Shown in pieces: positions 1,141-38,751 of a DNA stretch of 64,000 bases. Within the stretch, counting starts at the first letter, position 1. Each line of letters opens with the position of its first letter. The stretch is from assembly GCF_014280435.1 (NCBI RefSeq), contig NZ_CP060388.1:1302001-1366000 (forward strand), given 5' to 3'. The notes below the pieces were generated by a model. That model had not been told where the DNA came from and did no database searches. It was given only the letters and a program-made list of their open reading frames with translations. Made by a program: the position numbers and the translations under genes. The stretch comes from Sphingobium sp. KCTC 72723 (GTDB lineage: Bacteria; Pseudomonadota; Alphaproteobacteria; Sphingomonadales; Sphingomonadaceae).

Positions 1141-1327
1141 GCGTTCTGGGCCTCTTCTTTACTTGTGCGGCACGCGCCATTTGGTGTTCGTTTTCACCCA
1201 TTCGCCGGATCGGTCAAGCGACGCCTTGCGGAAGGGGCGATTATGGCCCACATTTCACCGCACTGGTTCGTTGGACCGGAATTGACGGTCCGGCAAGGCC
1301 GTTGGCGCAACGCGGGGGCGATGGAAA

Positions 1328-1783
1328 GTGCGGACATATCTGGTTGTCGTGGACGAATCGGCGGAGGCGGAAACCGCGCTGCGCTTTGCCGCGCGCCGGG
1401 CGACTAAGACCGGCGGATCGGTCCGCATCCTCGCCCTTATCCCGCCCGCAGAGTTCGTCCAGTGGGGCGGCGTGCAGGCGACGATGGAGGATGAAGCGCT
1501 GCAACGCGCCGAGGCGCTGGTGACCAGCGCGGCAGGCACGCTGACCGATGAGTCCGGCATCCGTCCGAGCATTACCGTGCGGCAGGGCGACGCAGTGACG
1601 GTGGTGCGGCGCACGCTCGATGAAATGGACGATGTCGCCGCACTGGTGCTGGGCGCGGCGGCAAGCGGGCCGCCCGGTGCCTTGGTGTCGCACTTTGCGG
1701 GCGCGGACGCGGGCAAGATGCCCTGCCCCATCATGGTCATTCCCGGCGGGCTGGACGCAGAGGCGATTGATCGGTTGAGTTGA
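1328..1783 (+). CDS. Universal stress protein (UspA family)
   Basis: A single-domain 151-residue protein with a Usp-like fold pattern: the N-terminal strand MRTYLVVVDES, an alpha/beta body, and a C-terminal strand CPIMVIPGG. The start used is GTG at 1328, which places the first strand right at the N-terminus; an ATG at 1321 is in another frame. The usual ATP-binding G-x2-G-x9-G(S/T) motif is not clean (LGAAASGPPGALVSHF), so nucleotide binding is uncertain. It stands alone, divergent from the E2 gene, and is followed by a palindromic repeat. Family membership is fairly secure, function is only general stress. Confidence 0.8.
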   Translation: MRTYLVVVDESAEAETALRFAARRATKTGGSVRILALIPPAEFVQWGGVQATMEDEALQRAEALVTSAAGTLTDESGIRPSITVRQGDAVTVVRRTLDEMDDVAALVLGAAASGPPGALVSHFAGADAGKMPCPIMVIPGGLDAEAIDRLS

Positions 1784-1791
1784 GAACCCAG

Positions 1792-1860
1792 CGTCATTGC
1801 GAGCGTAGCGAAGCAATCCATCGCGCCACCATGGATTGCTTCGCTACGCTCGCAATGACG
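1792..1860. repeat. REP-type perfect inverted repeat, 30-bp arms
   Basis: Two 30-bp arms (1792-1821 and 1831-1860) are exact reverse complements around a 9-bp loop. Each arm is also a small imperfect hairpin (ATTGC...GCAAT). It lies between the stop codons of the convergent usp and rnr genes and may serve as their transcription end, although it has no T-tract. The arm begins CGTCATTGCGAGCG, a repeat type I recognise from many sphingomonad genomes. Confidence 0.85.
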
Positions 1861-1867
1861 AGATGCA

Positions 1868-4201
1868 CTACCGCTTATGCTTACCCCTTTTGCCGCCGAT
1901 ATGACGGACATTGGCGGGGCGGCCGCGATGGGTGATGGAGCGGGAGTTGCCCGGACGGGTGCGGTCCTGCCTGCCCGGTCCACCGCGCGACGGGGGCGAG
2001 TCGGGCAGTTCGAAGCGTAGCACGCCGTTGATCGGGTCGGCTTCGGCCAGTCGCAGGTCGAGCCGCTGGCCGACGGTGTAGCGATCGCCGCTTTCCACGC
2101 CCTCCAAGGCCCGGCCCGCTTCGTCATGGAAGAAGCGTTCGCGGCCCAGCGTCGAGATATGGACGAGGCCATCGCCGCCCAACCCCTCCACCGTGGCGAA
2201 GAAGCCGAAATTCTGGACGCCGGTGATGCGCGCATGGACGATTTCGCCGACATGGGCAGCAAGATAGGCGGCGACATAGCGGTCCACCGTCTCACGCTCC
2301 GCTTCCATCGCGCGGCGCTCGAACTGGCTGATCATTTCGCCGACCTTGCCCATATTCTCATAATCAGCGACACTGAGCGAGGATTTGGCGGGGATGACAT
2401 TTCCCTTGGGCGCGGGCAGTTCCAGCCCGTGCGCGCCGACGAGCGCGCGATGGACCAGAAGGTCGGCATAGCGGCGAATGGGCGAAGTGAAATGGCCGTA
2501 GGAGCCAAGCGCCAGGCCGAAATGGCCCATATTGACCGGGCTGTAATAAGCCTGCGTCTGGCTGCGCAGGATCTGCTCCATGATCTGGGGCTTTTCCTCC
2601 GCCTCCCCCACCCGCTTGATGAGGTGGTTGAAGGTCGCGGGGCGCACCACCTGACCCAGGGCGAAGTCGATGTCGAAGGTCGCCAGATATTCCTTGAGCG
2701 CGACCAGCTTGTCGCGGCTGGGCGGTTCATGGACGCGATACATGACCGGCGCTTTCTTCTGTTCCAGCGCCTTGGCAGCCGCGACGTTGGCGGCGATCAT
2801 ATAATCTTCGATCAGCATATGCGCGTCGAGCCGTTCGCGTATCGCGACGCTGACGATCTTGCCCCATTCGTCCAGCACCACGCGCCGTTCGGGCAGGTCG
2901 AGCGCCAGCGGCTCGCGCGCCAGCCGCGCCTTGTGCAGCAAGTCCCAACAGGCCCAGAGCGGCTTGAGCGCGGTTTCGAGCAGGGGATGATCGCGCGTGC
3001 CGTCGATCGCGGCCTGTGCGTCTTCATAAGCCAGCACGGCAGCGACGCGGATGATGGCGCGGGAAAAGCGCCATGATATGACCTTGCCCGCCGCGTTGAG
3101 GACGAGGTGGCAGGCCATAGCCGCACGATCCTGCCCCGCGCGCAGCGAACACATGTCGGACGACAATTGATGCGGCAGCATGGGGACGACGAGGTCGGGG
3201 AAATAGACGCTGTTGCCGCGCTTGCGCGCTTCGCGGTCCAGCGCGCTGCCGGGGCGGACATAATAGCTGACATCGGCGATGGCGACGATGGCGCGGAAGC
3301 CGCCGGGATTGGCTTCGTCCGCGTCGGGCGTAGCCCAGACCGCATCGTCATGGTCGCGCGCGTCGGACGGATCGATCGCCACGATGGGAAGGTGGCGCAG
3401 ATCCTCGCGCTTTTCCTCATGCAGCGGCAGCGCGGACGCGGCGAGCGCTTCTTCCTCCACCGCTTCGGGGAAGACGTTGGGAATGCCATGTTTGTGGATG
3501 GCAATCAGGCTGAAACTGCGCGGGGCGAAGGGATCGCCCAAAATGTCGGTGACGCGCGCGGAAATGCGCGGCGGGCGGCCGGTGGGTTCGGCCAGCACCA
3601 GATCGCCCTTCTTGGCGTTGCCTGCGTCGCTGATCGGCGTATCCTTGCGGATGCGCTTGTCCACCGGGCGCAGCCACAGCTTGCCATCGGCCATTTCCTC
3701 GACCACGCCGAGCAGCATCTCGGTCGATTTTTCGAGCTTCTTCATCGGGTGCGCGACCCAGCCGTTGCCGGCCTCCTCCGTCCGGGCGAGGATGCGGTCG
3801 CCGACGGTGAGTGCGCCGCGTTTGCCGCGCTCCATGACGCGCAGGCGGGGCGCGGGCTGGCCTTCGGCTTCCCACCGTTCGGGGATGGCGATCAGGGTCG
3901 TGTCGTTGACATCGACGATGCGCAGCACAGTGACTTTGGGGACGCCGCCCAGCTTGTGGAAAGCACGGGCGGGGCCAAGGTCGATCATGCCTTCGTCGGC
4001 CATGTCCTTGAGCAAGGCTTTCAACGCGATCTTTTCCTGGCCCTTGAGGCCGAAAGCCTTGGCGATTTCGCGCTTGCCCGCTGGCTGGTCGGACGTGGTG
4101 ATGAAGTCCATGATTTCGGTGCGGGTCGGGAAACCGGCGGGGCGCACGCGGTCGCGGGCGGGGCGCTTTGGCGTGGGCGCCTTTTTGTCGTTGGATGTCA
4201 T
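1868..4201 (-). CDS. rnr: Ribonuclease R
   Basis: A processive 3'-5' exoribonuclease acting on structured RNA. The 777-residue product has an N-terminal winged-helix region (about 25-80), cold-shock-like domains, and the RNB catalytic domain with the metal-binding motif IDPSDARDHDDAV near residue 280. An S1 domain (ARITGVQNFGFFATVEGLG...LVHIS) and a basic tail follow. The start ATG at 4201 (MTSNDKK) is preferred over an in-frame one at 4243, which would overlap the divergent cupin gene. A TATAGC hexamer lies just 7 nt upstream of this ATG, so the mRNA may be leaderless. Confidence 0.95.
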   Translation of the reverse strand: MTSNDKKAPTPKRPARDRVRPAGFPTRTEIMDFITTSDQPAGKREIAKAFGLKGQEKIALKALLKDMADEGMIDLGPARAFHKLGGVPKVTVLRIVDVNDTTLIAIPERWEAEGQPAPRLRVMERGKRGALTVGDRILARTEEAGNGWVAHPMKKLEKSTEMLLGVVEEMADGKLWLRPVDKRIRKDTPISDAGNAKKGDLVLAEPTGRPPRISARVTDILGDPFAPRSFSLIAIHKHGIPNVFPEAVEEEALAASALPLHEEKREDLRHLPIVAIDPSDARDHDDAVWATPDADEANPGGFRAIVAIADVSYYVRPGSALDREARKRGNSVYFPDLVVPMLPHQLSSDMCSLRAGQDRAAMACHLVLNAAGKVISWRFSRAIIRVAAVLAYEDAQAAIDGTRDHPLLETALKPLWACWDLLHKARLAREPLALDLPERRVVLDEWGKIVSVAIRERLDAHMLIEDYMIAANVAAAKALEQKKAPVMYRVHEPPSRDKLVALKEYLATFDIDFALGQVVRPATFNHLIKRVGEAEEKPQIMEQILRSQTQAYYSPVNMGHFGLALGSYGHFTSPIRRYADLLVHRALVGAHGLELPAPKGNVIPAKSSLSVADYENMGKVGEMISQFERRAMEAERETVDRYVAAYLAAHVGEIVHARITGVQNFGFFATVEGLGGDGLVHISTLGRERFFHDEAGRALEGVESGDRYTVGQRLDLRLAEADPINGVLRFELPDSPPSRGGPGRQDRTRPGNSRSITHRGRPANVRHIGGKRGKHKR

Positions 4202-14529: not shown

Positions 14530-15721
14530 CGCCGACTGGCGGCATCGTCCCGGCCTCGACGCCCTGCTCGACGCGCTGGATGCGGCGGGCGGCAAGGCGC
14601 GTTTTGTCGGTGGCGCGGTGCGCGACGGATTGCTGGGCCTGCGCGTCAACGACCTGGACATTGCCACGACGATCGATCCGCATGAGGTGGTCGACCGGCT
14701 GAAAACGGCGGGGATAAAGGCGGTGCCGACCGGGATCGACCATGGCACGATCACTGCCGTCATTGGCGGATGGCCTGTGGAAATCACCACGTTGCGCCGC
14801 GATGTCAGCACCGACGGGCGGCGTGCGACCATTGCCTATACTGACGACTGGCGCGAGGATGCGGCGCGGCGCGACTTCACGATCAACGCGCTATATGCCG
14901 ACCCGCTGACGCGCGAAGTGACCGATTATTTCGGTGGCGTGGCGGACCTGGAGGCGCGACGGTTGCGCTTCATTGGGGACGCGAGCGCGCGGATTGCCGA
15001 GGATCATCTGCGCATATTGCGCTATTTCCGGTTCCTGGCGCGCTATGGCGGGGATGTACTGGACGCGGATGCCTATGAAGCGTGCCGGGCGGCGGCCAAC
15101 AGCCTGATGGCGTTGTCGCGGGAGCGGATTGCCGATGAATTGCTCAAGCTGATCGTCGTTGCCGCGCCGCTCCATGCGCTGCGACTGATGGTCGATGGCG
15201 GCATTTTGCGGGCAGTGCTGCCCGAAGTCGATGGCGCAGGTATCGCCCGGCTGGAGCAGCTGATCGCGCGGGAGGCGGCGGCGGGGGTGACGCCTGCGCC
15301 CGTGCGACGGCTGGCCTCGTTGCTGCCGCCGGACGCGGCCATCGCGGACGGGATCGCCGCGCGGTTGAAACTATCGAACAAGGCGCGCAAGCGATTGAGC
15401 ATCGCGCTGGAGCCGGGCGGGCTGGACGAAAGCCCACGCGCGCTGGCTTACAGGATCGGGGTGGAGGGGGCGTTCGACCGGATGCTGTTGGAGCCACATG
15501 TGCCGCTGGAGGCGCTGGAGGCGATTCGCGGCTGGACCCCGCCTACCCTGCCGATCGGCGGCGGCGCGCTGATCCAGCGTGGGTTGCAGCCGGGACCGGA
15601 CGTGGCGAAAGCGTTGCAGGCGGTGCAGCAGATGTGGGTGACGGAAGGCTTCCCCGACGCAGGCCGCGTCGCCGCCCTGGCGGATCAGATCGTTTCGAAA
15701 TTCCAGCGCGCGCGCCAGTAA
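14510..15721 (+). CDS. cca: CCA tRNA nucleotidyltransferase / poly(A) polymerase-type enzyme
   Basis: A class II nucleotidyltransferase of 403 residues that repairs or adds the CCA end of tRNAs. Visible motifs are GGAVRDGLLG, DLDIATT (metal-binding D-x-D), RRDFTINALYAD, and RIAEDHLRILRYFRF. The ATG at 14510 lies inside the Nudix gene end. The DUF1285-Nudix-cca order with overlaps implies one operon. Its 3' end overlaps the convergent GGDEF-EAL gene by 37 bp. Confidence 0.93.
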   Translation: MTVLLPDADWRHRPGLDALLDALDAAGGKARFVGGAVRDGLLGLRVNDLDIATTIDPHEVVDRLKTAGIKAVPTGIDHGTITAVIGGWPVEITTLRRDVSTDGRRATIAYTDDWREDAARRDFTINALYADPLTREVTDYFGGVADLEARRLRFIGDASARIAEDHLRILRYFRFLARYGGDVLDADAYEACRAAANSLMALSRERIADELLKLIVVAAPLHALRLMVDGGILRAVLPEVDGAGIARLEQLIAREAAAGVTPAPVRRLASLLPPDAAIADGIAARLKLSNKARKRLSIALEPGGLDESPRALAYRIGVEGAFDRMLLEPHVPLEALEAIRGWTPPTLPIGGGALIQRGLQPGPDVAKALQAVQQMWVTEGFPDAGRVAALADQIVSKFQRARQ

Positions 15722-17439
15722 TCGAACGCATCATTTTCGTTCATCGGCTTTGAGAAATGATAGCCCTGCCCCTGCCAGCAGCCCAGTTGCTGAAGCGCAT
15801 GGGCCAGTTCCTGCGTCTCTATCCCTTCGGCCGTGACTTTCAGGTTGAGCGATTCGGCGAGCGACAGGATGGTGCGGACGATCACCTGCTTGTCGCGATC
15901 CTCCATCATGTTGGACACGAAGCTGCGGTCGATCTTCAATATGTCGATCGGCAGGCTGTGCAGGCTGGCCAGGTTGGAAAAGCCGGTGCCAAAATCGTCC
16001 ATCGCGATCGACATCTTCAGATCTTTTAGAGCGAACAGCAATTTGCGCGCCTTGTCAGGATCGGCAATGATTGCGCTTTCGGTCAGTTCGGCGGTCATGC
16101 GGCTGCCCACGATGCCGGAATAGCGCAGCGCTTCCTCAAAGATCGAGGCGACGTCGTCGCGCGCCATCTGGATGGGCGACAGATTGACGTTCACGCTGAC
16201 CGGCAGCGGTTGCCCGAATTTCATGTCCCAGCGCGACAGTGCCTGCGCCGCTTCATAAGCGGCCCAGCGCCCCAGCGGGGTAATGAGGCCGCTTTCCTCC
16301 GCGACCGCGATGAACTCGACCGGCGGCACCGAGCCAAGGTTCGGGTCGTCCCAGCGCGCCAATGCTTCAAACCCGGTAATTTCGCCGGTTTGCAGGTGGA
16401 TCAGCGGTTGATAGGCCAGCGTCAGCCCACCCTGCGCCAGTGCGTCGCGCAGGCGGCTTTCGATCGAGAAGCGGCGCTGCGCTTCTTTCAACACGCCGTT
16501 GCGATAGATTTCCACTTTGCCGCTGCGCTTGGCGATCTTCACGGCGGCCTGCGCCTTGCGCACCACATCTTCCGGGTCATCATCCAGCGTCGTCGACAAG
16601 GCGCAACCGATCGCACAATCGACCCTGATCTGAAGGTCGGACAGGCGAATGGGCGAACTGAGCGCTTCCTTGATCCGCTGAACGATATGAAGGGCATCCG
16701 ACAGGCCATTGTTAAGGCGTGCGAAAATGGCGAAGTCATTGCCGCCGATCCGGGCCAGCACATCGCCCTGACGCAGGCTGGATTTCAGCCGCTTGGCAAC
16801 GGTGATCAACAATTCGTCGCCGGCCATCGGACCCAGCGATTCATTCACACGGCTGAACCGGCTAAGATCGATGGCGATGATGCCGAATTGGGCATTGTCG
16901 GGCCAAACCATATTGGCCAGCCGGTCTTCGATTTCTTCGCCAAAACCCGAACGGTTCGGCAGCGCGGTCAATCCGTCCGACAGCAGTTCCCGGCGCAGAT
17001 TCTTTTCGATCGTCCGTTCGCTGGTGCGGTCGGCAGCGGTAAAGAGATAATGTTCGCCCTGCCCGTTTTCGGCGGTCAATCGTCCAAAAGCGCAGGAAAA
17101 ATATTCCGGTCCCAATTTTCCGTCGCGGCGTAGTTCGAAATTGCGGTGGGGGCGATTCGACTGGACGAACGCCTCAAAATGCGTGCGCCAATCCATGCCG
17201 ATGCCGGCATGGGCCGCACTGTTTTCCAGAAAATCCCGTTGCGCCTGACGAAAGCCATCATTGCCGCAAATCAGGACTGTTTCATTGTTATCATAGGAAA
17301 AAATCGCGGCTATATTCGCAAGCGCGTTCAGCCAGTCGCCATATTCATGCAATTTCGCAGGACGTGCGTCATCGCCCGCGATTTGCGGGGCGCGACTGGC
17401 CTTTTCGACCGACTGATTGCACGCCGGAACAGATTCCAT
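15685..17439 (-). CDS. GGDEF-EAL protein, probable c-di-GMP phosphodiesterase with degenerate GGDEF
   Basis: A 584-residue cytoplasmic protein: an N-terminal PAS-like region (about 30-140), a GGDEF domain (about 150-310) and an EAL domain (about 325-575). The cyclase signature reads GGNDF (232-236), lacking the catalytic acidic residue, so cyclase activity is unlikely; it may still bind GTP. The EAL domain keeps EAL (358-360), NVNLSP, DDFGTG (481-486) and TAEGIET, so phosphodiesterase activity is expected. No membrane segment is seen. Its last 37 bp overlap the end of cca on the other strand. Confidence 0.92.
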   Translation of the reverse strand: MESVPACNQSVEKASRAPQIAGDDARPAKLHEYGDWLNALANIAAIFSYDNNETVLICGNDGFRQAQRDFLENSAAHAGIGMDWRTHFEAFVQSNRPHRNFELRRDGKLGPEYFSCAFGRLTAENGQGEHYLFTAADRTSERTIEKNLRRELLSDGLTALPNRSGFGEEIEDRLANMVWPDNAQFGIIAIDLSRFSRVNESLGPMAGDELLITVAKRLKSSLRQGDVLARIGGNDFAIFARLNNGLSDALHIVQRIKEALSSPIRLSDLQIRVDCAIGCALSTTLDDDPEDVVRKAQAAVKIAKRSGKVEIYRNGVLKEAQRRFSIESRLRDALAQGGLTLAYQPLIHLQTGEITGFEALARWDDPNLGSVPPVEFIAVAEESGLITPLGRWAAYEAAQALSRWDMKFGQPLPVSVNVNLSPIQMARDDVASIFEEALRYSGIVGSRMTAELTESAIIADPDKARKLLFALKDLKMSIAMDDFGTGFSNLASLHSLPIDILKIDRSFVSNMMEDRDKQVIVRTILSLAESLNLKVTAEGIETQELAHALQQLGCWQGQGYHFSKPMNENDAFDYWRARWNFETI

Positions 17440-17534: not shown

Positions 17535-19823
17535 TCAGAAGCGATTGTCGCGCGGAAAGCCATTGGGTGGCATCCGTCCCGCCGCGCCGCGCGCGACGCG
17601 CCATGGCGTCATATCGCTTTCGGTGCGGGTGCGCCCACTGCCCCCGCCCATCGTCCAGCTAAGGCCATCGGCCAGCGTAAACGCGATGGCATCGGACATG
17701 CCGCCATCGCGATAGCGCTGCATCTGAACGCCCTGCCCGCGCGACATTTTGGGCATTTCGCTGAGCGCAAAGACCAGCAATTTGCGGTTTTCGCCAATCA
17801 CGGCGATGCTGTCCGCCCCGGCCGGGACCGGGCGGATGATCGACAGCTTCGCTCCGGCGCGCACATTGACAACCTGCTTGCCCTTGCGCGTTTCGGCGAT
17901 CAGGTCGCTGACGGCGGCCAGGAAACCGCGCCCGTCCGACGACGCCAGCAGCAAATCGGTGCCGATCCGCGCGGGCATCAACGACAGGATCGTCCCTTCA
18001 TTATCCATGTCCAGCAACGACCGCACCGGATCGCCAAAGCCTCGCCCGCCCGGCAACTTGTCCGACCCCAGAGTGTAGATGCGCCCGGTGGCCGTCGCCA
18101 GCAGCAGCTTGTCGGTAGTATAGGCGTGGAAGGCGAATTGCGGGCCGTCGCCTTCCTTGAATTTCAGCGTGTCGGCAGCGGCAAGATCGCGATGGCCGCT
18201 CATGGCGCGGATCCAGCCGCGTTCGGACAGGATCACGGTAATCGGTTCGCGCTCGATCATCGCTTCCAGCGGGATTTCGCGCGCGATCGCAGCTTCCTCC
18301 ACCAGCGTGCGGCGGCGGCCCATGTCGGTTTCGGGACCATAGCGTTTGCGCAACGCCGCGATGTCGCGCTTCAGGCGCTTGCGCTGAAGGCCGGGGTCGC
18401 CGACCAGCTTTTCCAGATCGGCCTTTTCCTTGACCAGATCGGCATGTTCGCCGCGCAGCTCCATTTCCTCCAGCTTGCGCAGGGAGCGCAGCCGCATGTT
18501 CAGGATCGCCTCGACCTGACGGTCGTTCAGGCCGAATTCCTCCATCATCACCGTTTTAGGCTCATCTTCGGTGCGGATGATTTCGATCACCCGGTCGAGG
18601 TTGAGATAGGCGATGATATAGCCGTCGAGCAGGTCCAGCCGTGACGCGATCTTTTCCAGCCGGTGCTGTGCGCGCCGGACCAGCACATCGATCTGATGCT
18701 TCAACCATTCGATGAGAACCGCTTTAAGCCCCATCACGCGCGGCGTGTGGCTGGCGTCCAGCACGTTGAGGTTCAGCGGAAAGCGATTTTCAAGGTCGGT
18801 CAGCCGGAACAGGCTGTCCATCAGCATCTGCGGATCGACCGTGCGGGCGCGCGGTTCGATGACGATGCGGATTTCGGTGTCGCTCTCATCGCGTACATCG
18901 GCCAGGATCGGCAGCTTGCGGTCGTTGATGATCCCGGCAATCTGTTCGATCAGCTTGGATTTCTGCACCTGATAGGGAATTTCGGTCACGATCGCGACCC
19001 AGGTGCCGCGCCCGCCCTCTTCCTTGTGCCAGCGCGCACGGGTGCGAAACGCGCCGCGCCCGGTCACATAGGCTTCGGCAATGATCGCCGGATTATCGAC
19101 CAGCACGCCGCCGGTGGGAAAGTCCGGCCCGCCCACGACCTGCATCAGGGCGGCATGATCGGTATCGGGATCGTCGATCAGCAGGCTGGCGGCATCCAGC
19201 AATTCGGTGACATTGTGCGGCGGAATGCTGGTCGCCATGCCGACGGCGATGCCAGTCGCGCCATTGGCCAGCAGGTTGGGGAACAGGCCTGGAAAAACCT
19301 CCGGCTCCTCATCCTCGCCATTATAGGTCGGGCGATAATCGACCGTGCCTTCGTCCAGACCCTCCATCAGGTCGGCGGCGGCCTGTGTCAGACGCGCTTC
19401 GGTATAGCGCATGGCGGCTGCATTATCGCCGTCGATATTGCCGAAATTGCCCTGCCCATCGACCAGCGGGGTGCGGAGTGAAAATTCCTGCGCCAGCCGC
19501 ACCATGGCGTCATAGACCGACTGGTCGCCATGGGGGTGATATTTGCCGATGACGTCGCCGACGACGCGGGCGCATTTCTTGTAACTGGTGGTGTTGCGCG
19601 CGGGATTGGCGACCAGCACATCGGGCGACGCGCCGCCCGGCTCCATCTTGAGCAGGCGCATCGCCCATAACAGGCGGCGATGCACGGGTTTCAATCCATC
19701 GCGCAGATCCGGCAGCGAGCGCGCGGTGATGGTGGACAGGGCATAGACCAGATAGCGTTGCGACAGCGCCGCGTCGAACGGATGGTCCTTGATATCGTCA
19801 AAGGGATCGCGAAAATCGGTCAT
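17535..19823 (-). CDS. parC: DNA topoisomerase IV subunit A
   Basis: A 762-residue type IIA topoisomerase breakage-reunion subunit, needed to decatenate daughter chromosomes. The catalytic tyrosine is Y140 in [11 protein letters not shown]. The quinolone region reads [15 protein letters not shown], giving Gln101 and Asp105 where E. coli ParC has Ser80 and Glu84. A short C-terminal domain of blades (e.g. [18 protein letters not shown]) follows, with no GyrA box seen, which supports ParC rather than GyrA. ccdB ends 45 bp upstream on the same strand with no obvious terminator between. No strong ribosome-binding site precedes the ATG. Confidence 0.95.
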
Positions 19824-19868
19824 CGCAGGCGGGATAGCAGGATGGATACGAAACGGAAACGGATTTGC

Positions 19869-20162
19869 TCAGAAGCCGATCAGAAGCATCTCCAATGCCG
19901 CAGCAATATTGTCCTGATGTTCCCGAACGGAGCCGACCGGCTTGCCCAGGAACCGGACGGGGACCGAAGCGATCTGGTGAGTGGCCATGACATAGGTTTG
20001 GCGATCAACTTGCAGCAATGGATGCAATCGCGCGATCGGCGCAGGCACTTCATCAGGGGCGACTAATGGCACGACGACGCGCCGCGACACATGATTGAGC
20101 ACATCGGCCTGGCAATCAATGACCAGCACGTCACCCAGTCGATAGAGGTCGAACCGTGCCAT
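19869..20162 (-). CDS. ccdB: CcdB family toxin
   Basis: A 97-residue CcdB-family protein: MARFDLYRLGDVLVIDCQADVL at the start, RRVVVPLVAPDEV, LHPLLQVDRQTYVMATHQIASVPV and a final ALEMLLIGF. Plasmid-F CcdB poisons GyrA and needs its last residues Trp99-Gly100-Ile101; here they read Ile-Gly-Phe, so the gyrase-poisoning Trp is missing. The ATG overlaps the ccdA stop (TAATG). It lies 45 bp upstream of parC. Activity or target may differ from classical CcdB. Confidence 0.88.
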   Translation of the reverse strand: MARFDLYRLGDVLVIDCQADVLNHVSRRVVVPLVAPDEVPAPIARLHPLLQVDRQTYVMATHQIASVPVRFLGKPVGSVREHQDNIAAALEMLLIGF

Positions 20163-20410
20163 TAAAAGGCCCGATATTGATCGAGCGGCGAACCATGTTC
20201 GCTATCATAGATATTCCATGCCGCTATCGCCTCTGCATTCTCTTCCTGCCACTGGCGACCGCGTTCCGCCGCTATTTCCTTGCGCAATCCTTCCTCGCAG
20301 GCGCGCGAAAGGTTTATGCCGAGTGCGCGGGCGTCCTCCACCAATGCGCTGTCCAGTGACAGGTTGGTCGCCTTGCGGGTTTTGAAGCCGGTACGATCAT
20401 GGCGGGTCAT
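20162..20410 (-). CDS. ccdA: CcdA family antitoxin
   Basis: An 82-residue antitoxin. The N-terminal half (KATNLSLDSALVEDARALGINLSRACEEGL) is a ribbon-helix-helix DNA-binding pattern. The C-terminal half (RQWQEENAEAIAAWNIYDSEHG) matches the toxin-binding arm of CcdA. AAAGGAG stands 6 nt before the ATG. As in other type II systems it precedes the toxin and overlaps it. Autoregulation is suggested by a palindrome in the promoter upstream. Confidence 0.92.
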   Translation of the reverse strand: MTRHDRTGFKTRKATNLSLDSALVEDARALGINLSRACEEGLRKEIAAERGRQWQEENAEAIAAWNIYDSEHGSPLDQYRAF

Positions 20411-20439
20411 GGGTGGCTCCTTTACCGGACATGCGCATC

Positions 20440-20467
20440 ATCATACGCATGATCATGCGCACGGCAA
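20440..20467 (-). promoter_or_regulatory. ccdAB promoter with palindromic operator in the spacer
   Basis: On the minus strand, TTGCCG (-35, 20462-20467) and TATGAT (-10, 20440-20445) are separated by 16 bp. Within that spacer, 20446-20459 is the perfect 14-bp palindrome CGCATGATCATGCG, and a wider TGCGCAT (20432-20438) / ATGCGCA (20455-20461) pair overlaps it. This is the expected place for CcdA or CcdAB repressor binding. Confidence 0.6.
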
Positions 20468-20535
20468 GCGCTTTTCCCGTTCGGAAAGACACAGCAAGGG
20501 GTTGCACATTTCGCACGACGCGCCACTTTACCGCC

Positions 20536-21297
20536 GTGTTCGAACCCGCCCTTTCCCAATCCGCCCTGCCCTCCCCCCCGCTCGCGCTGCTGACCGGCGC
20601 GGCACTGTTCCTCGATTTCGACGGAACGCTGACGCCGATCGTCGATACGCCGGACGATGTCGATGTCGGGCCGGACCTGATCGCGATGCTCTTGGCGTTG
20701 CGGGCGAAGCTGGACGGGCGGCTGGCGATCGTCAGCGGCCGGTCGGTGGCGACGCTGCGCGATCTGGGCTTTGGCGATTTTCTGTTGGCAGGCACCCATG
20801 GGCTGGAGTTTGCGCGGCCCGGCGAGGCCGCGCAAGCACCGCCGCGCCTGCCCGCGATCGACGCAGTGGAGGCGGCCTTCCACGCCTTTATCGCCGACAA
20901 GCCGGGCCTGTTGGTCGAGCGCAAGACGATCAGCGTGGGCCTGCATTTCCGGCGCGCGCCGGAGTGGGGCGAGGCGGCGGGCGCGCTGGCCGCTACGCTG
21001 GCGGCGCAACATGGCCTGACGATCCAGCATGGCAAGATGCTGTATGAACTGCGCCCCGGCGGCGCGGACAAGGGCAGCGCGGTCACGGCGCTGATGAAGC
21101 AATCGCCCATGGCGGGCGGGGTGCCGGTGTTCATCGGCGACGATGTGACGGATGAGGAAGGCTTCGCGGTTGCGGCCGACCTTGGCGGGGCGGGCATATT
21201 GGTCGGGCCGCAACGATCGACGCTGGCGTCATTCTCTTTGGAACAGGTTGCCGCCGTCAGGCATTATCTGGCTGAGGGGGCTGCAAGTCCGCGCTGA
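20536..21297 (+). CDS. otsB: Trehalose-6-phosphate phosphatase
   Basis: A 253-residue HAD-family phosphatase that releases trehalose from trehalose 6-phosphate. The nucleophile motif is DFDGTLTP near residue 25, the second motif VSGRS follows, and the C-terminal GDDVTDEEGF carries the metal-binding acids. The GTG at 20536 places DFDGTL at the usual distance; the longer frame from 20413 would run through the ccdA promoter region. First gene of the otsB-GH15-otsA operon. Confidence 0.93.
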   Translation: MFEPALSQSALPSPPLALLTGAALFLDFDGTLTPIVDTPDDVDVGPDLIAMLLALRAKLDGRLAIVSGRSVATLRDLGFGDFLLAGTHGLEFARPGEAAQAPPRLPAIDAVEAAFHAFIADKPGLLVERKTISVGLHFRRAPEWGEAAGALAATLAAQHGLTIQHGKMLYELRPGGADKGSAVTALMKQSPMAGGVPVFIGDDVTDEEGFAVAADLGGAGILVGPQRSTLASFSLEQVAAVRHYLAEGAASPR

Positions 21298-36738: not shown

Positions 36739-36766
36739 TTGCGCCCGCCGCCCGCCCGCCTATAGC
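36739..36766 (+). promoter_or_regulatory. Possible parE promoter close to the start codon
   Basis: TTGCGC (36739-36744) and TATAGC (36761-36766), spacer 16 bp, lie just 8 bp before the parE ATG, implying a leaderless or nearly leaderless mRNA; no Shine-Dalgarno is present. Confidence 0.35.
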
Positions 36767-36774
36767 TTGTCGCC

Positions 36775-38751
36775 ATGCCTGATGACCTGTTTGCTGCCCA
36801 GCCCACATCCTCCCCCGGCTATGACGCCTCGGCCATCGAAGTGCTGGAGGGGCTGGAGCCGGTCCGGCGTCGGCCGGGCATGTATATCGGTGGCACGGAC
36901 GAGCGTGCGCTGCACCATCTGGCGTCCGAAGTGCTGGACAACAGCATGGACGAGGCCGTGGCGGGTCATGCCACGCGCATCGAAATCACGCTGGAACCGG
37001 GCAATCGCCTGACCATCACGGATAATGGGCGCGGCATCCCGGTCGATCCGCACCCCAAATTCCCCGGCAAATCGGCGCTGGAAGTCATCATGACCACGCT
37101 CCATTCGGGCGGCAAATTCACGGGCAAGGCCTATGCCACGTCGGGCGGCCTGCATGGCGTGGGCATCAGCGTGGTCAACGCCCTGTCGATCACCACCATT
37201 GTAGAGGTTGCCCGTAACAAGGAATTGTTCCGGCAGAGCTTCTCGCAGGGCTTGCCGGTCACGCCGCTGGAAAAGGTCGGCGCGGCCCCCAACCGGCGCG
37301 GCACGTCCGTCACCTTCATTCCCGACACCGAAATCTTCGGCGAACAGAAGTTCAAGCCCGCGCGCCTCCACCGTCTTGCCCGGTCGAAGGCCTATTTGTT
37401 CGCGGGGGTGGAAATCCGCTGGAAATGCGCGGCGGAACTCATCAGCGACGATACGCCGGTCGAGGCCGTGTTCCAGTTTCCCGGCGGGCTGGCCGATCAT
37501 CTCAAGGAACAGGTGAGCGACCGCGAATGTGCCACCAGCGTGTTCTTTTCCGGCAATCAGGATTTTCCGGCGGAAGCAGGGCGCGTCGAATGGGCCGTCG
37601 CCTGGCCGCTCTGGTCGGATGGCAGCTATAGCTGGTATTGCAACACCATCCCCACCCCCGACGGTGGCACCCATGAAGCGGGGATGCGCGCGGCGCTGGT
37701 GAAGGGCATCCGTGCCTTTGCCGATCTGATCGGGCAGAAGAAGGCGAAGGACATCACTGCCGACGACATCATGACGTCATCGGAAATCATGCTATCCGTG
37801 TTCATCCGCGAACCCCAGTTTCAAAGCCAGACCAAGGATCGGCTGACCAGCCCCGACGCTGCAAGGCTCGTGGAAAACGCCGTGCGCGACCATTTCGACC
37901 ATTATCTGACCGACCATATGGACCGGGGCAAGGCGCTGCTCGCCTATGTTCTGGACCGGATGGACGAACGGCTCAAGCGCAAGCAGGAGAAGGAGGTCAA
38001 GCGCAAGACCGCAACCAACAGCCGCAAGCTGCGCCTGCCCGGCAAGCTGACGGATTGTTCCAACGACGACCCGGAAGGCGCTGAAATCTTTTTGGTCGAA
38101 GGCGATTCTGCCGGCGGTTCTGCCAAACAGGCGCGCGACCGCAAGACGCAGGCGATTCTGCCCCTGCGCGGCAAGATATTGAACGTCGCGTCCGCCAACA
38201 ATGCCAAGATCCTGGCCAATCAGGAAATCGCCGACATGATCCTGGCGCTGGGTTGTGGCACGCGCAAGGACTGTAACCCCGACCATCTGCGCTACGAACG
38301 CATCGTCATCATGACCGATGCGGACGTGGACGGCGCGCATATCGCCACGCTGCTGATGACCTTCTTCTTTCAGGAAATGCCCGAACTGGTGCGGCGCGGG
38401 CATCTCTATCTGGCGCAGCCGCCGCTTTACCGCATCGTGGCAGGCGGCAAGAGCCTCTATGCCAAGGATGACGCCCATCGCGAGGCGCTGCTGAAAAAAG
38501 AATTCAAGGGCAAGAAGGTGGAGATCAGCCGCTTCAAGGGGCTGGGCGAAATGAACCCGATGCAATTGCGCGAAACCACCATGGACCCCAAGACCCGCAG
38601 CATGATCCGCATCACCCTGCCCGCCGATGTCGAGGAACGCGCCGGGGTGCGCGATCTGGTCGACCGGCTGATGGGGACAAACCCGGCCCACCGCTTCGCC
38701 TTCATTCAGGAAAATGCAGCGGCGGTGGACGAAGCAGCCATCGACGCATGA
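36775..38751 (+). CDS. parE: DNA topoisomerase IV subunit B
   Basis: A 658-residue ATPase subunit partnering ParC. The GHKL ATP-binding site shows EVLDNSMDEAVAG, ITDNGRGIPVD and GGLHGVGISVVNALS. The Toprim domain has VEGDSAGGSAKQARDRKTQAILPLRGKILN and MTDADVDGAHIATLL. Length and the AYVLDRMDERLKRKQEKE coiled segment fit ParE. parC lies about 17 kb upstream and on the opposite strand. The next gene overlaps the stop codon by ATGA. Confidence 0.95.
   Translation: MPDDLFAAQPTSSPGYDASAIEVLEGLEPVRRRPGMYIGGTDERALHHLASEVLDNSMDEAVAGHATRIEITLEPGNRLTITDNGRGIPVDPHPKFPGKSALEVIMTTLHSGGKFTGKAYATSGGLHGVGISVVNALSITTIVEVARNKELFRQSFSQGLPVTPLEKVGAAPNRRGTSVTFIPDTEIFGEQKFKPARLHRLARSKAYLFAGVEIRWKCAAELISDDTPVEAVFQFPGGLADHLKEQVSDRECATSVFFSGNQDFPAEAGRVEWAVAWPLWSDGSYSWYCNTIPTPDGGTHEAGMRAALVKGIRAFADLIGQKKAKDITADDIMTSSEIMLSVFIREPQFQSQTKDRLTSPDAARLVENAVRDHFDHYLTDHMDRGKALLAYVLDRMDERLKRKQEKEVKRKTATNSRKLRLPGKLTDCSNDDPEGAEIFLVEGDSAGGSAKQARDRKTQAILPLRGKILNVASANNAKILANQEIADMILALGCGTRKDCNPDHLRYERIVIMTDADVDGAHIATLLMTFFFQEMPELVRRGHLYLAQPPLYRIVAGGKSLYAKDDAHREALLKKEFKGKKVEISRFKGLGEMNPMQLRETTMDPKTRSMIRITLPADVEERAGVRDLVDRLMGTNPAHRFAFIQENAAAVDEAAIDA

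Follow-up and report, generated by a model that had tools for sequence, protein, structure and literature searches.

In E. coli O157 a chromosomal ccd module lies between folA and apaH, and mazEF is situated beside relA, according to the part of PMC7167474 that deals with these loci. For V. fischeri CcdB, a structure has been solved of the toxin bound to GyrA14 (4ely, 4elz; PMC5086665, section 4.2; PMC10886550, section 3.2). In the comparison given in section 4.2 of PMC5086665, three of ten gyrase contacts are common to the V. fischeri and F-type toxins, Asp99 of V. fischeri CcdB bonds GyrA Arg462, and movement of Trp99 is described as a feature of the E. coli complex.

Here we describe a ccdAB module directly before parC in the window (i.e. 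the whole stretch of 64,000 nucleotides of Sphingobium DNA that was analysed), together with the corresponding loci of its relatives. Judged by titles and abstract openings, mainly outside subscription journals, the literature on ccdAB with parC or in Sphingobium did not yield this arrangement, and titles and abstract openings on the exchange of alleles or domains at toxin-antitoxin loci likewise yielded nothing on it. On the comparisons presented below we regard it as probable that the ccdAB of this locus is a chromosomal module of type II, which was inserted before the parC promoter, is transcribed from its own promoter, encodes a gyrase toxin, occurs as diverged alleles and has been lost from some relatives.

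Locus organisation and gene identities

Rechecking of coordinates and translations confirmed the order ccdA, ccdB, parC on the minus strand; the gene order, strand and 45-nt gap given in the initial annotation all hold, as does its observation that the toxin ends in Ile-Gly-Phe and has no Trp. The antitoxin gene ccdA (20162-20410, minus strand) encodes 82 residues (Pfam PF07362 CcdA, 97.4 bits, E 6.2e-28), whilst ccdB (19869-20162, minus strand), the ATG of which shares one base with the ccdA stop codon, encodes a CcdB-family toxin of 97 residues with the C-terminus EMLLIGF (Pfam PF01845, 89.9 bits against a cut-off of 28.6, E 1.4e-25). With a CcdA-family gene directly upstream in what is predicted to be a single operon, ccdB has the setting of a ccdAB module; the genome contains a single ccdB and a single ccdA, and PADLOC matched neither protein of the window. 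A 45-nt spacer (19824-19868, minus strand), in which no terminator is visible, separates ccdB from parC (17535-19823, minus strand), whose product of 762 residues is identified as topoisomerase IV subunit A by Pfam DNA_topoisoIV (449 bits) and by the NCBIfam equivalog TIGR01062 parC_Gneg (823.9 bits, above the cut-off of 628.9). Downstream of parC, on the same strand, lies a gene for a GGDEF-EAL protein (15685-17439), and an open frame at 36766-38751, about 17 kb from parC, matches the GyrB/ParE C-terminal family and was taken to be parE.

On its other side the module is adjoined by the divergent gene otsB (20500-21297, plus strand; trehalose-phosphatase, Pfam PF02358, 122 bits), the start codon of which is not fixed. 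In one related locus (L059) a LysR-type gene (1450-2370 of that locus; PF03466 and PF00126) lies between otsB and ccdA, and in 16 of the 18 other loci that carry ccdAB before parC (hereafter carriers) otsB is located 1850-1958 nt before parC, a distance matching L059, the remaining two stretches being too short to show it. This LysR-type gene is absent from the window, where otsB adjoins ccdA directly (region 20411-20500). The window keeps a TTGCCG -35 box that in relatives coincides with the last part of the upstream gene.

Distribution of the ccdAB-parC linkage

The genus set comprised 94 Sphingobium genomes, including that of the window, and its parC loci 94 rows plus the window, one genome having two parC genes. 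CcdB was found in 29 of the 94 genomes, as a single match in each, and ccdA-ccdB stands directly before parC in 19 of them, with a ccdB-parC gap of 45 nt in ten carriers, 52 nt in eight and 66 nt in one. An identical arrangement at the equivalent position in 18 of the 93 other genomes indicates a linkage that is more than chance, and the neighbourhood comparison (19/94) disposes of one refuting condition set in the initial annotation, namely that relatives carry no ccdAB beside parC. A sample of 298 genomes from the family contained CcdB in 44 relatives; parC was absent from all 44 of the surrounding stretches examined (1.5-2 kb to either side, a few truncated by contig ends), and a contig scan for named relatives returned one locus, from a Sphingomonas. 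Another ccdB group, located away from parC, is common to seven Sphingobium genomes (L031-L037).

In a ParC tree of 93 rows that omitted L151 and L152, whose ParC is short or shifted, all 19 carriers fall within one clade of 42 rows, with an SH-aLRT support of 90 that lies below the 95 mark. Besides the carriers, this clade contains six clear relics of the module, four weak relics and 13 rows in which nhmmer detected no trace of ccd, whilst none of the 51 rows outside it has intact ccdAB or a relic at parC. Clear relics were defined by an nhmmer E of 2e-4 or better, the best match to reversed control sequences having E 3.7. Five loci (L070, L076, L120, L121 and L122) have a decayed ccdA directly before parC with ccdB undetected (nhmmer E 8e-20 to 5e-16), and the relic in L120 retains a CcdA score of 49.6 bits. 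The weak relics are those of L123 (E 0.003), L119 (E 0.08) and L078 and L079 (E about 6), the last two scoring no better than the best reversed control. Relics occur at the place expected for ccdA or for the end of ccdB. Intact ccdAB is therefore missing from 23 of the 42 clade rows, all of which retain parC, and the comparison, which establishes both linkage and decay, makes the parC-side ccdAB look like one old insertion followed by repeated loss.

A wider association between ccdB and topoisomerase genes was also considered and rejected. A type IIA topoisomerase gene adjoins ccdB in one of 152 other locus rows, against about 0.8 by our rough estimate of chance, a count that may be a slight underestimate because contig ends truncate at least eight rows and only part of GyrB served as query, and in which L199 repeats L167; there is thus no general trend. 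The single case, L175, is from an alphaproteobacterium of another family, in which ccdA-ccdB (1187-1803, plus strand) converges with gyrB (1809-3296, minus strand) at a separation of five bases. The linkage to parC seems to trace to one event, perhaps an accidental one, and may have been kept either by local recombination or by plain inheritance.

Diverged alleles between conserved flanks

The CcdB proteins encoded beside parC are of type A in nine and type B in nine of the 18 other carriers, and of a third type in the window. Identities in ParC and CcdB are strikingly different in L071/L075 (99% versus 44%), L067/L072 (98% versus 47%), L114/L116 (98% versus 52%) and L062/L068 (95% versus 51%), whilst six pairs of matching type have CcdB identities of 70-98%. 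Distance profiles of pairs from the same clade with different types show the upstream gene and parC to be close, with distances of 0.31-0.53 over most of the interval that opens near codon 48 of ccdA and closes with the ccdB stop codon, and of 0.25-0.28 at the ccdA-ccdB junction and past the ccdB stop. Over the same interval, pairs of the same type from different clades are separated by 0.12-0.30. DNA distances over the first half of ccdA are similar for both kinds of pair (0.21-0.27 for same clade and different type, 0.24-0.28 for same type and different clade), so that this half follows neither clade nor type.

Approximately unbiased (AU) tests agree with this discordance: the monophyly of three ParC subclades is rejected by CcdB (p 5e-4, 3e-10 and 1e-22) and, conversely, that of type A is rejected by ParC (p about 1e-50). 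On the ParC tree the A and B labels change five times, and 135 of 500 shuffles gave as few changes or fewer; the alleles are thus hardly ordered by ParC, although this is not a positive test. Columns diagnostic of type number 0 of 54 in the first part of CcdA (approximately residues 1-54), 10 of 28 in the last (approximately 55-82) and 31 of 98 in CcdB. Together with the distances, these columns suggest that CcdB travels together with the toxin-binding half of CcdA, the DNA-binding half being common to the locus. Divergence sets in near the beginning of ccdA in L071/L075 and L114/L116 and inside ccdA in L067/L072, indicating that breakpoints differ. Between types, dS is 1.7-1.9 for ccdB and about 0.3 for parC (three pairs), and within types (seven pairs) dN/dS ranges from 0.05 to 0.12 in ccdB and from 0.06 to 0.26 in ccdA; both genes are under purifying selection.

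These patterns might have arisen with no exchange at all, from an ancestral tandem pair or an ancient polymorphism of two CcdB types that was sorted differently among species, an explanation that we consider rather unlikely. Types A and B do form, with 39 database proteins, one supported group in the CcdB tree (SH-aLRT 96), and both occur in both deep ParC subclades, as such sorting would predict. However, the two types never occur together in a genome, CcdB giving just one match in every one of the 29 genomes that have it, and the first half of CcdA bears no mark of the allele. The spacers also match those of clade mates of the other type: L068 (type B) has a 45-nt spacer like its type-A clade mates, and L067 (type A) shares an identical parC-proximal part of the spacer with L072 and L074, clade mates of type B. 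Furthermore, the third type, that of the window, groups apart from A and B, albeit with weak support in a tree of few columns and long branches; it has two close database relatives only (96% and 83% identical).

A plasmid source for the alleles was sought among plasmid CcdB records, of which 3176 matched the window protein, 265 type A and 154 type B; none reached 60% identity, and no plasmid donor was thus found.

In place of sorting, we favour exchange: a cassette made up of the toxin and the antitoxin tail seems to have been exchanged beside parC, presumably by homologous recombination. A more elaborate form of this proposal, to which we give tentative and less than even credence, is that the parC-side ccd is an allele-exchange site at which ccdB and the toxin-binding half of CcdA are swapped by homologous recombination, one arm being provided by the first half of ccdA or the upstream gene and the other by the promoter and start of parC. 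The essential gene would then anchor a locus of changing specificity, perhaps selected to escape or cure incoming ccd modules.

Putative promoters, operator and read-through into parC

Upstream of ccdA a promoter is predicted at 20440-20467 (minus strand; TTGCCG, 16 nt, TATGAT), one of two sites found in the stretch against 0.3 expected from shuffles, and boxes of the form TTGCC[GC] and TAT[AG][AT]T at matching spacing occur upstream of ccdA in 19/19 carriers. Overlapping the -10 box is a candidate CcdA operator (20431-20450, minus strand) with half-sites ATGCGTAT and ATGCGCAT, 12 nt apart centre to centre; this repeat is the sole match in the window, where none is expected, and a related motif of two ATGCGYAT half-sites (up to four mismatches) is found in 19/19 carriers compared with 0/76 other rows. 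The module would thus appear to possess its own promoter and an operator-like repeat, to which CcdA/CcdB is predicted to bind.

A further conserved element lies in the ccdB-parC gap, where GCTATCCC (19831-19838, minus strand), containing GCTA, is predicted to be the -10 element of a promoter belonging to parC itself. With L152 left out of the count, GCTA is present between -25 and -4 relative to the parC ATG in 19/19 carriers and in 70/75 non-carriers, the other 5/75 lacking it, whereas each of five control stretches further upstream contains it in at most three loci of either set. Compared with the Caulobacter RpoD consensus (TTGaCgS, GCtANAWC) as quoted in PMC8144410, GCTATCCC agrees partly with the -10 element, and no -35 is recognisable in the window; on the -35 side, carriers have CGTTTCC-like or CGTTCC-like sequences and many other loci TTGCCA. 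A sigma-70 scan gave no minus-strand site in the gap. As the GCTA box is present with or without ccdAB, parC probably keeps a promoter of its own in the 45-nt gap that is older than the module.

A scan for terminators over 19700-20600 found none in the gap and one site near the end of ccdA (mean of 0.6 in shuffles), and the gap of the window folds into no stable hairpin (-0.5 kcal/mol, z 1.16). Scan and folding therefore bear out the earlier remark that no terminator is evident between ccdB and parC in the window, and read-through into parC may occur. It might be supposed that read-through is the point of the arrangement, i.e. that degradation of CcdA opens the ccd promoter, transcription continues into parC and the additional topoisomerase IV buffers the block of gyrase, the position beside parC having been selected. 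The shared strand and the 45-66 nt gap in all 19 carriers would suit such functional coupling, as would the terminator-free gap (the scan covering the window alone). We nonetheless judge it unlikely, given the GCTA box before parC in every carrier, the 23 of 42 clade rows that keep parC with no intact ccdAB, and the lack of any tendency of ccdB to lie beside topoisomerase genes (1/152). The box and these 23 rows equally speak against the dependence of parC on read-through that was entertained in the initial annotation.

The CcdB C-terminus and the likely target

The window CcdB has a CcdB/MazF-like fold that is closest to CcdB. It does not belong to the F-type equivalog NF010262 (50.2 bits, below the cut-off of 147), and its terminal Ile-Gly-Phe replaces the Trp-Gly-Ile of the F-type toxin. 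The third-from-last residue, Ile in the window, is Trp in 0/58 sphingomonad loci (Thr in 32/58), in 0/70 database matches (the window's own protein among them) and in 2/97 full-length CcdB sequences drawn from the samples at class and phylum level; in the alignment, V. fischeri CcdB has Thr here. The missing Trp had been read as pointing to a target that had changed or been lost; we rejected this argument because Trp is rare in the family and the V. fischeri toxin, which has Thr there, has been solved on gyrase. At the place of V. fischeri Asp99 the window has Glu91, and Asp occupies it in 56/58 sphingomonad loci. An equivalent of Arg462 (numbering on E. coli chains) is present in the organism's own GyrA (in DLRL) and also in its own ParC, and this residue therefore cannot discriminate between the two targets. 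On sequence grounds, gyrase would be the default target, and the window CcdB most likely poisons it in the manner of V. fischeri CcdB, with no need of the Trp.

It has also to be asked whether CcdB encoded beside parC has ParC/topoisomerase IV as its target, in place of gyrase or in addition to it, as the neighbourhood and the Arg462-equivalent in ParC might suggest. The tenth residue from the end of CcdB, a place that we take to align with F-plasmid Asn92 (a gyrase contact, touching gyrase Arg462) and V. fischeri Ala96, is Lys or Arg in 14/19 parC-side toxins and in 0/39 others. This basic residue tracks two allele types that are related to each other, however, and so is not independent evidence; 5/19 parC-side proteins are without it, the window having Ala as does V. 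fischeri, and no other place among the last 17 residues separates the parC-side set from the rest. Binding of a peptide derived from CcdB to ParC, at about 1 nM, has been reported (PMC10886550, section 3.2). Against this, the contrast between ParC (98-99% identical) and CcdB (44-52%) in different species gives no sign that the two proteins changed together, and we find a changed target distinctly unlikely.

The third suggestion of the initial annotation, that the module is a domesticated regulator that is no longer toxic, is in our view highly improbable. Long residence beside an essential gene would be in keeping with it, but the fold and most of the C-terminal end are conserved, the purifying selection noted above acts on ccdA and ccdB, and the module is frequently decayed or absent in relatives, unlike an adopted regulator.

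Discussion

The reading that we prefer can be set out as follows. The ccdAB module would have entered upstream of the parC promoter in the ancestor of one Sphingobium clade, and would be transcribed from its own promoter, with CcdA (together with CcdB) repressing by binding the ATGCGYAT repeat. CcdB is expected to poison DNA gyrase in V. fischeri fashion. Because parC would have its own promoter in the 45-nt gap, its expression should be independent of ccdAB, with read-through as a possible extra input. Members of the clade appear to have lost the module repeatedly, some leaving relics, and where it persists the second half of ccdA and ccdB occur in strongly diverged versions that are at odds with species relationships, whereas the upstream gene and parC agree with them. 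Of the earlier interpretation the conserved linkage (19/94) thus stands; the Trp argument, the dependence of parC on read-through and the domesticated regulator do not.

The usual picture of chromosomal toxin-antitoxin modules is that they are present, absent or decayed; here near-identical flanks surround toxins that share about half of their residues, and the allele boundary runs through the antitoxin, where the DNA-binding half meets the toxin-binding half. This makes it testable whether modules are retained through turnover of specificity, for example as protection against related incoming modules, and why the parC site is involved. It also corrects a trap of annotation: a CcdB whose end has no Trp need not, on that ground alone, have ceased to poison gyrase.

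Of the known toxins, V. fischeri CcdB (PDB 3jrz, 4elz, 4ely, 2kmt) is 30% identical to that of the window in alignment and resembles it at the toxin end, where both are without Trp; its gene neighbourhood differs, and its window counterpart has a predicted target. The F-plasmid toxin (PDB 1vub, 1x75) is 26% identical, is encoded on a plasmid and ends in Trp99-Gly-Ile compared with Ile-Gly-Phe in the window. The E. coli O157 ccd and mazEF/relA loci, as presented in PMC7167474, are likewise modules inserted among housekeeping genes that work without them, and relA, as described there, illustrates that the neighbour can have its own promoter. The present locus differs from them in features that lie outside that account: its neighbour is parC, diverged alleles appear to replace each other, and their boundary falls inside ccdA.
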